A stretch of DNA of 64,000 nucleotides, taken from the NCBI GenBank assembly GCA_021832345.1, contig JAKBKY010000002.1, forward strand, positions 248,001 through 312,000. The letters run 5' to 3'. Positions 11,929 through 15,888 of this stretch are shown piece by piece. The position numbers were made by a program, and so were the translations under genes. A model generated the notes under the pieces. That model was not told the origin of the DNA. It ran no database searches and saw only the letters and a program-made list of their open reading frames with translations. Source of the DNA: a bacterium. Lineage in GTDB: Bacteria; Vulcanimicrobiota; Vulcanimicrobiia; Vulcanimicrobiales; Vulcanimicrobiaceae. Within the stretch, counting starts at the first letter, position 1. Each line of letters starts with the position of its first letter.

Positions 11929-12153
11929 CTAGATCGCGATCTCGACGAGTTCAGCCGGGGTAGGCTCGACCGCAAGCTCGATGCCCTCGATCTCGGCGGC
12001 CTCAAGATAGCCAAGGATCGCTTCGCGCGTGCTCGCAAGCGCCTCGTCGCGCGTAGTCCCGAAGGTGGAGAGATGATCCAAAGCAGGCACGTACGTGACC
12101 CAGGCCCCCTCGGCCGGATCGTACTCGACAATCACCTGGAACTGGCGCTTCAT
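11929..12153 (-). CDS. hicB: HicB-family antitoxin
   Basis: Seventy-four residues, beginning MKRQFQVIVEYDPAEGAWV followed by VPALDHLSTFGTTRDEALA, the partial RNase H-like HicB fold that binds HicA. There is no C-terminal DNA-binding domain, as in the short HicB forms. A -10-like TAGTAT (12160-12165, minus strand) ends only 6 bp before the ATG, so the mRNA may be leaderless. It is transcribed away from the tRNA-Ala genes. Confidence 0.85.
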   Translation of the reverse strand: MKRQFQVIVEYDPAEGAWVTYVPALDHLSTFGTTRDEALASTREAILGYLEAAEIEGIELAVEPTPAELVEIAI

Positions 12154-12508: not shown

Positions 12509-12585
12509 GGGCCATTAGCTCAGCTGGTTAGAGCGCATGCTTGATAAGCATGAGGTCCCTGGTTCGAACCCAGGATGGCCCACCA
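12509..12585 (+). tRNA. tRNA-Ile (GAT)
   Basis: A complete 77-nt tRNA with encoded CCA. The acceptor GGGCCAT pairs with ATGGCCC and the anticodon loop is TTGATAA. A -10-like TATACT lies at 12491-12496. The convergent PQQ gene ends at the very next base, so the two transcription units abut. Confidence 0.97.
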
Positions 12586-13920
12586 TCACAGAACATTCCC
12601 CTGCCCGTGCATCGCGCGCAGCTTTGCCAACGGGATAGCATAGACCGTCTGGTCGTCGGCGACGTAGAGCGTCGAACCGTCGATGAGCGGCGGCGAAATG
12701 GTGAAGATCTGGGGGAAGTGTACACGGGCGATGAGGTGTCCGGAGCGTGCGTCCACCATGTAGAAGTAGCCTGCGGTGTCTCCAACGTAGAGTCGCCCGC
12801 GGTTCACCACGGCGCTCATCTTGACGGGGGCGGCCGTGCGCAGCCGCCAGAGCGGCTCTCCGTCGGCCACAGAGAACGCACGAACCTCATCGAGTACGGG
12901 TATGGCTTGGTAGAGTGTGCCTCGATGGATCAGCCCGGCGACGGCCTGTTCGTTGGAGCCGCGTGTCGTCCATCGCCCTGCCTGGGAGCGCCAGCGCCAG
13001 CGGAGTGCGCCGGTGCGTGCGCTCACCACGCTCACGGTGGAGTAGGTCGCCTGATCGGCGGGCTTGCCGGGCAGCCATCCGGCGCCCTCAAGGGCAACGA
13101 GACCATCGGAGACTGCGGGGGAGCAGTCGGCGTTCCCGTGATAGGCTCGCTGGACGACCCTCCCATCGCTCAGCGCAACGATGTCGAGATGCGCGGGCTC
13201 TCCGGAACGCGGGCCGCCGCCCACGATCACATACAGGCGGCCGCCTGTGACGGCAGCCGAACTCATCGTGGCAATTCCTCGCGTCGGTCGCGTCCACAAA
13301 GTCCGTCCGGTCGCAAGCGATAGCGCCTTGATGCGATCGTGGCCGTTTGCTCCGATGATGGCTAGCTGTCCAACGGTGCGTGCCAGTGCCGCTGTCGGCA
13401 TGTCCTCGCCCACGGTCCGTCGCTGCCACACGATCCTTCCGTTCTGGGCATTGAGCGCGAGGATGCGATCCCCACCCGGTCGCCCCCATACGGTTCGTCC
13501 CCGCCGGTCGACCAACACTCGATTGGTTCCCGTCCCAACGACGACCAGGCCGGCAGCCACGAGCGGGGTCGTCATCGCGACATCCGGCAGCGGAGTCGAC
13601 CAGATGAGGCGGCCGGTACGCGCATCCAGCGCACTCACTTGCCGATTGAAGCTCTCGACGAAGACCTTGCCGCCGGCGATGGCCAGACCTCCGTTGACCT
13701 TGCCGTGAAGCGAGCGCTGCCAACTCGTCGCACCAAGCCCCGGGCGCACTGCCTGGTGGCTTGAGCGAAACTGGTACATCGGCCACATCCCAGCGGGGCA
13801 CCGCCCGGCACCCAGGGTTGCCAGCAGGATGACCGAGAGCGCGAAGCGCAGCGGGGCGCGTGTCGCTGCGCGCCATGGCGCCGAGCAACTGCCGGTCCTT
13901 ATCCGATTAAGGCGATCCAC
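12586..13920 (-). CDS. PQQ-type beta-propeller protein, probably exported
   Basis: About 444 residues. A hydrophobic signal segment (RFALSVILLATLGAG, residues ~26-40) is followed by repeated blades with the PQQ/BamB signature, such as SALDARTGRLIWSTPL, LALNAQNGRIVWQR and KALSLATGRTLWTR. Such propellers are scaffolds for outer-membrane assembly or quinoprotein enzymes; no dehydrogenase catalytic residues are evident, so a scaffold is more likely. It starts with GTG 13920 inside the end of the small upstream gene. It is the last gene of a four-gene operon with a lytic transglycosylase. Confidence 0.7.
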   Translation of the reverse strand: MDRLNRIRTGSCSAPWRAATRAPLRFALSVILLATLGAGRCPAGMWPMYQFRSSHQAVRPGLGATSWQRSLHGKVNGGLAIAGGKVFVESFNRQVSALDARTGRLIWSTPLPDVAMTTPLVAAGLVVVGTGTNRVLVDRRGRTVWGRPGGDRILALNAQNGRIVWQRRTVGEDMPTAALARTVGQLAIIGANGHDRIKALSLATGRTLWTRPTRGIATMSSAAVTGGRLYVIVGGGPRSGEPAHLDIVALSDGRVVQRAYHGNADCSPAVSDGLVALEGAGWLPGKPADQATYSTVSVVSARTGALRWRWRSQAGRWTTRGSNEQAVAGLIHRGTLYQAIPVLDEVRAFSVADGEPLWRLRTAAPVKMSAVVNRGRLYVGDTAGYFYMVDARSGHLIARVHFPQIFTISPPLIDGSTLYVADDQTVYAIPLAKLRAMHGQGNVL

Positions 13921-14123
13921 TTGGCCAGATACGCATCGTCATCTTTGATCTGCGTCATCGCCATTGTCCGCAAAACCTCGCCTTCGCGCAAGATCTCGGC
14001 GCGCTCGGCGGCGACCTCGTCGAAACGCTGGTGCGTCACAAGAAGGCCGCGCGACGCCGCGCCGACCTCTTCACCGTCTGCGGTACGCCGCACGACGCCC
14101 TCCTTACGATCGATCCGTATCAT
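13899..14123 (-). CDS. Small protein, paralogue of the upstream gene
   Basis: Seventy-four residues. Its last ~45 residues align with the C-terminus of the product of 14120-14425: FDEVAAERAEILREGEVLR here versus FDEAMDERSENMREVNVLR, and both end in a K-I-IG pattern. It starts at an ATG overlapping the previous stop (ATGA) and overlaps the next gene by 22 bp. I recognise no family. Size and helical nature recall needle, rod or pilin-like subunits or regulators, but this is speculative. Confidence 0.55.
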   Translation of the reverse strand: MIRIDRKEGVVRRTADGEEVGAASRGLLVTHQRFDEVAAERAEILREGEVLRTMAMTQIKDDDAYLAKWIALIG

Positions 14124-14425
14124 TGACCGATCATCTGGATAAACTTTTTAACGATGCCGTCGTCGGCTTTGCGCTGTGCCATCGTGATATCGCGAAGTAC
14201 ATTCACTTCGCGCATGTTCTCCGAGCGCTCGTCCATCGCTTCGTCAAAGGCCGTGGATTGAATCTGCATCGTCTCTTGGTGGCGCATCTGTTCGCCATAG
14301 AGACCGAGCTGGAAGAGTTCGTCTTGGGTGTTGAGGCCGGTCATCGCGGCATTCTGTGCGCCGCCGGCGATGCCGCCGACGATCGCCGGGAGGGCCATTT
14401 CGGCTAAGGGTGCGAGAAAGGACAC
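14120..14425 (-). CDS. Small protein with glycine-rich hydrophobic N-terminus
   Basis: A 101-residue protein from GTG 14425 with GGAGG 9 bp upstream. The N-terminus, LAEMALPAIVGGIAGGAQNA, is a glycine-zipper-like hydrophobic helix. The C-terminal ~50 residues match the next small protein. It sits between a lytic transglycosylase gene and its own paralogue. This could be a subunit of a cell-envelope structure whose assembly needs local peptidoglycan cutting, but no family is recognised. Confidence 0.6.
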   Translation of the reverse strand: MSFLAPLAEMALPAIVGGIAGGAQNAAMTGLNTQDELFQLGLYGEQMRHQETMQIQSTAFDEAMDERSENMREVNVLRDITMAQRKADDGIVKKFIQMIGQ

Positions 14426-14472
14426 TGCTGGATACCTCCTATTGTGGGTGGTCGAGGGTGATGCGTCTGGAT

Positions 14473-15108
14473 TCAAGCCTGCTCGCCGTCGAGGAGCGCG
14501 GCGTTGCCGGTGCCGTCGTTATCGGTGCTCTCCGCGGAAGAGCGCTTGTTGCCTGACGCCCAAGCCGGCGGCATCGGCAGCGGTGGGGGCGCCGGTATGG
14601 GAAGCCGGCTTGGGGAAGCAGCCTCGGTAGTCCGAGCGGTACCGGCTGCGGGCCCCGCGTCCCCGGCGATGCGCCGCTCGTGTCGGAGGACGGAGTCGGC
14701 GTACCCCAGCAGGGCGCCGTCCCCCCATCGGGTCTGCGTGCCCACCGCACGCGGATCACCCGCATTGTACGCTTGGAGGGCCGCACGAACGTTGCCGTGG
14801 TAGCGGTCGAGCAGACCCCGAAGCATACGAGCTGCGTACTCGGCATTGGCCGCCGGGTCCATCGCCGCCCCTGAGGCCGCGAAGGCATGAAAGCGGTCGT
14901 CGATTTGAAAGAGGCCCCGCCCGTGACCGTTGTCGCCATCGATGTTGCGCCCGGCGTTGGAGCCGGGACCGCCCGTCTCTTGAGCGGCGACCGCCGCCAG
15001 CAAGGCAGGATCGAGGGAGTAGCGGGCGGCCGACGCGGCGATCTGGGGGGCGTACGCTACCCCGGCATGTTGCAGGGCTGCGGCGGTTGGAGCAAGGTGA
15101 AGCATCAT
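14473..15108 (-). CDS. Lytic transglycosylase (SLT domain)
   Basis: About 211 residues. The SLT domain (residues ~20-140) has the catalytic Glu in LAAVAAQETGGPGSN, the GRGLFQID motif and the LQAYNAGDP motif near the end. A Pro-rich C-terminal tail follows (PIPAPPPLPMPP). There is no obvious signal peptide from the chosen ATG 15108; TTG 15144 is another start and adds nothing hydrophobic. Such enzymes cleave peptidoglycan, often to let secretion or pilus machines through. It leads the operon 14473-12586. Confidence 0.75.
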   Translation of the reverse strand: MMLHLAPTAAALQHAGVAYAPQIAASAARYSLDPALLAAVAAQETGGPGSNAGRNIDGDNGHGRGLFQIDDRFHAFAASGAAMDPAANAEYAARMLRGLLDRYHGNVRAALQAYNAGDPRAVGTQTRWGDGALLGYADSVLRHERRIAGDAGPAAGTARTTEAASPSRLPIPAPPPLPMPPAWASGNKRSSAESTDNDGTGNAALLDGEQA

Positions 15109-15215: not shown

Positions 15216-15716
15216 ATGGGTCATTCTCACAAGATCAATGTTGGGTCCGTACTCGCGGGAAGCGGGCGGCGCCTGGTGGTGGCCGATCGGATCGCGCTTG
15301 AGCCGTTCGAGGGGATCGCTTTCCCCGAGCCGCTCCGGGTGGATCTGGAAGTGGGCTTTGCCGATGGGCAGCTCCTGATCGAGGGCAAGATTGCTGCAAA
15401 CTTTCGCGGAGAATGCGACCTGTGTCTTGGTGAGGTTTGCGCAGAGATGCTCCTGGATGTCGATGAACGCATCGAACTCGAGGACGAAGGCATCGACGGG
15501 CCTTTTGGCGAGAGCAACGTCCTTGTCGGCGAATCTCTCGATGTCGGGGACCTCGCGATGCAACTCGTGCTGAGCGCGCTACCATTGGGGTTGCGTTGCT
15601 CGCGGGAGTGCCAAGGCTTATGTCCGCAGTGCGGCACGAACTTGAACGCGAGCACTTGCTCGTGTCAGAACGGAGAGAAACGTGGCAAATCCGAAGTGGA
15701 AAACTCCGCGCAGTAA
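15216..15716 (+). CDS. yceD: YceD/DUF177 family protein
   Basis: A 166-residue DUF177 protein. The four-cysteine zinc-like signature is CDLCLGE followed later by CQGLCPQCGTN, as in the family. The gene almost always precedes rpmF and has been linked to 23S rRNA accumulation and ribosome assembly. ATG 15216 was chosen because it gives MGHSHKINVGSVL. Its end overlaps rpmF by 35 bp, an unusually long coupling. Confidence 0.85.
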   Translation: MGHSHKINVGSVLAGSGRRLVVADRIALEPFEGIAFPEPLRVDLEVGFADGQLLIEGKIAANFRGECDLCLGEVCAEMLLDVDERIELEDEGIDGPFGESNVLVGESLDVGDLAMQLVLSALPLGLRCSRECQGLCPQCGTNLNASTCSCQNGEKRGKSEVENSAQ

Positions 15717-15888
15717 GACGCGCAGCCGGCGTGCGGCGAACTGGCAGCTCGGCCCGGTAACGGCCGTCGAGTGCCCGCAATGCCATCAACCGAAGCGGCC
15801 GCACTTTATCTGCGAAGCGTGCGGAACCTACGCCGGCCGTCAAATCGTCGAGGCGAAGGACGAGCATGCCGCTCACGCGCACGGTTAG
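15682..15888 (+). CDS. rpmF: 50S ribosomal protein L32
   Basis: Sixty-eight residues. It starts GTG with GGAGAG upstream: MANPKWKTPRSKTRSRRA, then the zinc-binding CPQCHQPKRPHFICEACG. This is a complete L32. It begins inside the 3' end of yceD and is followed 4 bp later by fabH, so ribosome and fatty-acid genes are linked. Confidence 0.96.
   Translation: MANPKWKTPRSKTRSRRAANWQLGPVTAVECPQCHQPKRPHFICEACGTYAGRQIVEAKDEHAAHAHG

Follow-up and report, generated by a model that had tools for sequence, protein, structure and literature searches.

Do a peptidoglycan-cutting enzyme, two small related proteins, and a beta-propeller act together when their genes lie end to end on one strand of a bacterial chromosome, and if so, in what? 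The original prediction read the four minus-strand genes at 12586–15108 of the window (the whole analyzed stretch of 64,000 nucleotides) as a compact operon for an envelope-spanning structure or a secretion device. This interpretation is partly right: the first three genes, here called LT, S1, and S2, are conserved together, and no regulator family on record matches the small proteins, but the membership of the propeller does not stand.

Gene layout and encoded proteins

The ORF coordinates bear out both the predicted minus-strand cluster and its junctions: a 47-bp gap between LT and S1, a 4-bp overlap between S1 and S2, and a 22-bp overlap between S2 and the propeller gene. LT (14473–15108, ATG start) encodes 211 aa with a proline-rich C-terminal tail. 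S1 (14120–14425, GTG start) encodes 101 aa, with a Gly/Ala-rich hydrophobic N-terminus and a long Gln-rich helix; a longer S1 starting from TTG at 14476 was rejected, since the proteins of relatives begin at the position matching the GTG. S2 (13899–14123, ATG start) encodes 74 aa, a variable N-terminus and the C-terminal module shared with S1, in one helix. The divergent flank is formed by yceD and rpmF (15219–15888, plus strand; PF02620, E 4.2e-14, and gene order in relatives), with fabH, fabD, fabG, acpP, and ffh downstream of them.

The fourth gene (12586–13920, minus strand, GTG start) encodes a PQQ/BamB-like beta-propeller whose N-terminus includes a hydrophobic stretch (PF13360, E 1.1e-31); against the BamB equivalog TIGR03300 it scores 88.5 bits, below the cut-off of 285.2. 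Of the 149 phylum genomes, 51 have homologues, which are close to S1/S2 in only three: co-oriented beside them in the window's genome alone, nearby and convergent in G111 and G112, and otherwise elsewhere or absent. Hence, we judge the propeller to be a local neighbor and not a member of the unit. Its 3′ end directly abuts a convergent tRNA-Ile gene (12509–12586), which may be a typical landing site for acquired genes. At 11929–12153 (minus strand), the window also encodes a small protein that matches HicB-like antitoxins below threshold (PF15919, E 0.0015).

LT carries an SLT domain (PF01464, E 5e-10, 39.4 bits against a cut-off of 21.3), matches goose lysozymes in PDB (E 4e-6), and aligns over residues 4–158 with the virion enzyme PRD1 P7 (E 3e-5). 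By homology of its catalytic domain, it is a putative goose-type-lysozyme-like (GH23-like)/SLT peptidoglycan hydrolase; the motif AAQETGG presumably contains the catalytic Glu of the family. Unlike these relatives, LT is chromosomal and apparently vertically inherited, has the proline-rich tail, and adjoins S1/S2. No Sec signal is visible by eye in the N-termini of 15 LT genes.

The C-terminal module that the two small proteins were predicted to share is common to them far beyond chance: hhalign pairs residues 52–100 of S1 (about 14126–14272, minus strand) with residues 26–74 of S2 (13902–14048, minus strand) over 49 columns at 41% identity (profile–profile probability 98.7%, E 2.1e-16). The module is charged, and neither a signal nor a clear transmembrane segment is found. 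The glycine-rich hydrophobic N-terminus claimed for S1 is present, but is only borderline as a transmembrane helix: the maximum 19-residue Kyte–Doolittle value is 1.60 in the window and 0.76–1.44 in four relatives, and hydrophobicity is weak in family f3. AF2 models predict a single helix in each protein, at residues 18–73 of S2 (mean pLDDT 83.7, pTM 0.50) and, with low confidence, 20–100 of S1 (pLDDT 69.0, pTM 0.25). Gln makes up 13.6% of the S1 helix vs. 3.4% in long ORFs of the window; cysteine is absent from all 33 aligned S1 sequences; and hydrophobic or coiled-coil periodicity is not significant in either small protein (P 0.18 and 0.55).

Searches of Pfam, NCBIfam, PADLOC, and PDB place S1 and S2 in no known regulator family, yielding no meaningful family match in the first three and no convincing one in PDB; the PADLOC anti-phage defence models are matched by none of the four proteins. 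In PDB, the S1 profile matches chains of viral haemagglutinin (best E 0.0054) along with a few other entries, and the S2 profile has one match at E 0.24. The haemagglutinin matches are taken as an analogy of architecture and not as kinship. S1 and S2 are a real, undescribed protein family within a conserved unit; among open-licence PMC papers on type III secretion, flagella, or lytic transglycosylase in Eremiobacterota, no title or opening of an abstract describes LT–S1–S2.

Alternatively, the three genes could form an ejection or lysis module of phage type that has been domesticated, with LT as a virion enzyme or endolysin, S1 as a pilot- or holin-like membrane protein, and S2 as its soluble regulator. 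LT matches PRD1 P7 and phage enzymes of the lytic tail and internal-virion types, virion-borne wall-penetration enzymes among them, and its lack of a visible Sec signal agrees with such an origin. Among 50,697 phage records, S1 has a sole match, a microvirus DNA pilot protein (E 0.08, 31% identity); PHROG pilot matches (E 0.038 and 0.072) are each seen in single members of the 33 S1 sequences, and single members also weakly match internal-virion, pilot, and T7 gp14 families of PHROG or Pfam among many unrelated ones. These matches are, however, all weak and scattered, and we treat them as analogy. Furthermore, a holin would have one or more clear transmembrane segments, and S1 is at best borderline in this respect in the five sequences above; S1 and S2 occur without LT in deep branches, no relative of S1 was found in a scan of 2.9 million viral contigs, and none of 60 relatives has an HK97-type capsid, the test applied for a gene transfer agent. 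Phage or gene transfer agent origin was rejected on the last two grounds, and we consider a domesticated module unlikely.

Distribution and gene order

The original prediction is supported insofar as the peptidoglycan enzyme and the two related small proteins form a real conserved unit, as seen in a survey of S1 over 149 genomes, a search with the A2 profile, and a gene-order table of 46 genomes. S1 is found (E ≤ 0.01) in 97 of the 149 genomes of the phylum, 96 of them within the window's class, which comprises 117 genomes (families f1, f2, and f3); the sole match among the 32 genomes outside the class is weak (E 0.0055). The window is from Candidatus Eremiobacterota. Related loci in the named genome collection (44 loci) are almost all from this group too, and the titles of the few others say no more than "bacterium", "uncultured bacterium", or "unidentified bacterium".

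In the gene-order table, which covers 46 of the 97 S1-bearing genomes and uses RpmF as flank marker, 39 genomes have LT upstream in the same orientation, and 39 have S2 at most 500 bp downstream of S1 (with an S2-like gene scored by the S1 profile in G094, and S2 437 bp off in G108). In f1 and f2, the divergent neighbor of the unit is usually RpmF, which precedes the fab operon. Among 36 S1/S2 pairs from named relatives, 27 have the 4-bp overlap. LT is absent from seven of the 46 loci (G031, G035, G055, G077, and three f3 genomes); S2 is absent from the f3 genomes, G037, and G054, falls beyond the contig end in G045, and lies about 6.8 kb away in G107. The three examined f3 genomes have S1 alone, beside other genes. 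The seven loci without LT and the solitary S1 of f3 indicate that LT is an addition to the unit and not its core. As read from gene order rather than from a class tree, the unit seems to have grown stepwise, from S1 to S1–S2 and then to LT–S1–S2.

These absences would also suit a lack of any joint function, with LT a locally captured hydrolase and S1/S2 a cytoplasmic helical pair, either scaffold or regulator; the charged module without a signal or clear transmembrane segment points the same way. The tight and persistent order of the three genes in 39 of 46 genomes argues against it, while the S1/S2 overlap ties S1 to S2 and is uninformative on LT. On balance, we regard this reading as somewhat improbable.

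The class contains 21 S1-negative genomes, and the position of FabH was checked in 15 of them (all except G034, G039, G049, G063, G121, and G123). In eight, the contig stops at the locus or close to it (G040, G070, G071, G079, G087, G092, G100, and G126), this call resting, for G070, G071, G079, G087, and G126, on FabH lying 10–1321 bases from contig base 1; G092 has a weak A2 profile match (1e-5). G022, G057, and G073 have no reliable FabH position, and G030, G036, and G078 no FabH match. The absence of S1 in G052 is a real loss.

Local variants of the locus were observed as well. G037 and G054, of genus g5, encode an extra Ser/Gly-rich protein of 127 aa between LT and S1 (L126, 8573–8956, and L127, 9391–9774; no Pfam match for the L126 copy), and in G042, also of g5, about 400 bp at this place are an unfilled gap. 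G108 has two copies of S2 downstream of S1 (L040, 10339–10578 and 11993–12217).

A hookless export system and its losses

Many genomes of the class have two kinds of FHIPEP, a flagellar one scoring near 850 bits and a second one near 640 bits. In the window's genome, the latter lies in an operon (G000:C3, about 68,950–82,750; loci L061, L074, and L141) for a hookless flagellar-type export apparatus, for which T3SS2 is our own label. The operon contains FlgB-, FlgC-, FliE-, FliH-, FliI-, FlgG-, FliM/N-, FliP-, FliQ-, FliR-, FlhB-, and FlhA-like genes, an SLT enzyme of its own, and FliF with a FliG middle-domain-like (FliG_M-like) segment at its end; metF is located between fliP and fliQ, and no hook, filament, or needle gene is seen in the operon. 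FliE, FlgG, FliN, FliI, FliF, and SLT are confirmed by Pfam, and FlhA by the FHIPEP search; FlgC (E 0.039) and FliM (21.6 bits) are below the Pfam cut-off; the names of FlgB, FliH, FliP, FliQ, FliR, and FlhB rest on inspection by eye and on position. As counted from a list, 103 of 117 class genomes have a strong FliF2 match (E ≤ 1e-37). G118, a single contig of 3,508,363 bases carrying LT–S1–S2, has one FHIPEP, of the second kind. In other classes of the phylum, genomes G005, G011, G014, and G133–G140 (5.0–8.4 Mb) have at least seven FHIPEP matches each, which suggests many type III export systems per genome.

The cultured Vulcanimicrobium alpinus WC8-2 is described as having neither flagella nor a flagellin gene (PMC9758169), and the non-flagellated Lysobacter enzymogenes OH11 retains a functional export system of flagellar type that is linked to twitching (PMC7277350). 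By analogy, the latter may serve as a precedent for T3SS2, as flagellar export genes are kept without flagella in both; unlike it, T3SS2 is streamlined, has the FliG_M-like segment fused to FliF, and has its own SLT.

S1 and S2 might be obligate inner-rod- or needle-type subunits of T3SS2, LT being its dedicated wall opener. T3SS2 has rod parts (FlgB-, FlgC-, FliE-, and FlgG-like) without a visible hook, filament, or needle gene; the size and missing signal of S1/S2 suit such subunits; and the small proteins and T3SS2 are co-distributed throughout the class. They also decay together in three genomes. In G037, S1 ends after residue 88 and S2 is lost, while in T3SS2 nothing remains between FlgB and the end of FliP, the FlhB frame is split, and FlhA has a stop; in G052, LT is broken and S1/S2 are gone, with T3SS2 lesions in fliF and fliI; in G107, S1 is truncated and T3SS2 is cleanly deleted. 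G054 has the same S1 break as G037 and no T3SS2 gene found, although at 68% completeness the absence of T3SS2 may be due to incompleteness, as in G104 (56%). No broken S1/S2 locus was found among the opened T3SS2-bearing genomes with an S1 match (part of 88). For three of three breaks falling within six of 94 genomes, a rough hypergeometric estimate, uncorrected for phylogeny, gives 1.5e-4; its sample, six T3SS2-damaged genomes and 88 others, was taken from lists, and the S1/S2 loci of part of the 88 were opened.

Other losses separate the two systems. At the syntenic site, T3SS2 is lost or decayed in G101, G099, G100, G107, G092, and G110 (L146–L151); metF and secD are kept, and T3SS2 remnants are present in five of these six. 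G099 and G101 have lost T3SS2, with no FHIPEP found, and G110 has it in fragments, yet S1/S2 are kept in all three. By eye, the T3SS2 scars of G099 and G101 are alike, and that of G100 is different; in a nine-genome tree, the T3SS2-bearing G102 and G103 fall among the T3SS2-less genomes of genus g32, so the timing of the g32 losses is uncertain. Between G099 and G101, pN/pS is 0.04 for S1 and 0.06 for S2, and it is low for both in g32. Relaxed selection on S1/S2 after T3SS2 loss is, accordingly, not seen in the six g32 genomes. In G099, an in-frame stop interrupts the domain of LT, and in G101, S1 has Pro at a nearly invariant Leu; these may be early decay or sequence errors.

Purifying selection on S1/S2 in the T3SS2-less G099 and G101 and their persistence in G110 thus count against obligate subunits, as does the SLT that T3SS2 already has; a needle or inner rod would have a cognate export apparatus, and here S1/S2 are conserved without FHIPEP. 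Nor do 17 S1 and 17 S2 sequences scanned against Pfam match T3SS needle or inner-rod families, and hhalign gives no signal of S1/S2 with the axial proteins FlgB, FlgC, and FliE. The obligate role, hinted at by joint decay, is weakened by G099, G101, and G110, and we rate it as quite unlikely. Of the readable T3SS2 loss lineages, S1/S2 are lost in three of five and retained in two of five; joint decay in the former and persistence in the latter argue for association and not obligate membership, and S1/S2 are probably associated with T3SS2 without being an obligate part of it.

A possible wall-crossing device

Our best explanation, held tentatively, is that the class has inherited LT–S1–S2 vertically as a unit encoding a wall-crossing helical device, which would work by analogy with phage ejection conduits, alongside T3SS2 but not obligate to it. 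The envelope-spanning or secretion role of the original prediction stays putative. We infer that S1 and S2, arising in the stepwise history described above, could go back to a single small helical ancestor and probably assemble together via their common C-terminal helix. The Gly/Ala-rich N-terminus of S1 may associate with the membrane or insert into it, and S2 would be its soluble partner. LT would reach the wall by a non-Sec route and open peptidoglycan locally, letting the helical assembly cross; the device most likely works alongside T3SS2, which occurs in nearly the whole class, and may be functionally tied to it.

Conservation of the operon, the shared module, low pN/pS, and the wall-cutting family of LT, with virion-borne enzymes among its phage matches, point to such a device, as do the pilot-protein match of S1 (E 0.08) and its Gln-rich helix; the link to T3SS2 is suggested by the joint breaks in G037, G052, and G107 and the S1 truncation in G054. 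Against the explanation stand S1/S2 kept in the T3SS2-less G099, G101, and G110; the absence of LT and S2 in deep branches; and the lack of periodicity and of FlgB/FlgC/FliE homology, the weak hydrophobicity in f3, and the low-confidence S1 model.

Two known systems offer likenesses in the way of working only. In injectisomes, the lytic transglycosylase EtgA interacts with the inner rod EscI. LT–S1–S2 would resemble this pair in having a wall enzyme beside small rod-type proteins; unlike EscI, S1/S2 match no rod or needle family and persist without an FlhA homologue in G099 and G101. S1 resembles the microvirus pilot protein (phiX174 H tube) in its Gly/Ala-rich N-terminus and long Gln-rich helix, but there is no significant homology, no capsid, and no phage context, and S1 has a second partner protein without a hydrophobic part. 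Amide and guanidinium side chains line the phiX174 pilot tube (PMC7354561). As a far bolder and highly improbable conjecture, S1/S2 might form a Gln-lined tube, the cellular counterpart of the pilot tube, spanning the periplasm once LT has opened the wall. Such a conduit would serve the hookless T3SS2 together with one or more further exporters, and non-flagellated Eremiobacterota would thereby secrete through a new kind of channel.

S1 and S2 add an undescribed protein family, under purifying selection where measured, to most genomes of a little-known, barely cultured class of soil bacteria, in which a reduced flagellar-type export system, T3SS2, also comes to light. The pattern of joint vs. 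separate loss makes the relation between the two directly testable. If S1 and S2 build a wall-crossing helical conduit, the three genes would encode a very small envelope-penetrating device.
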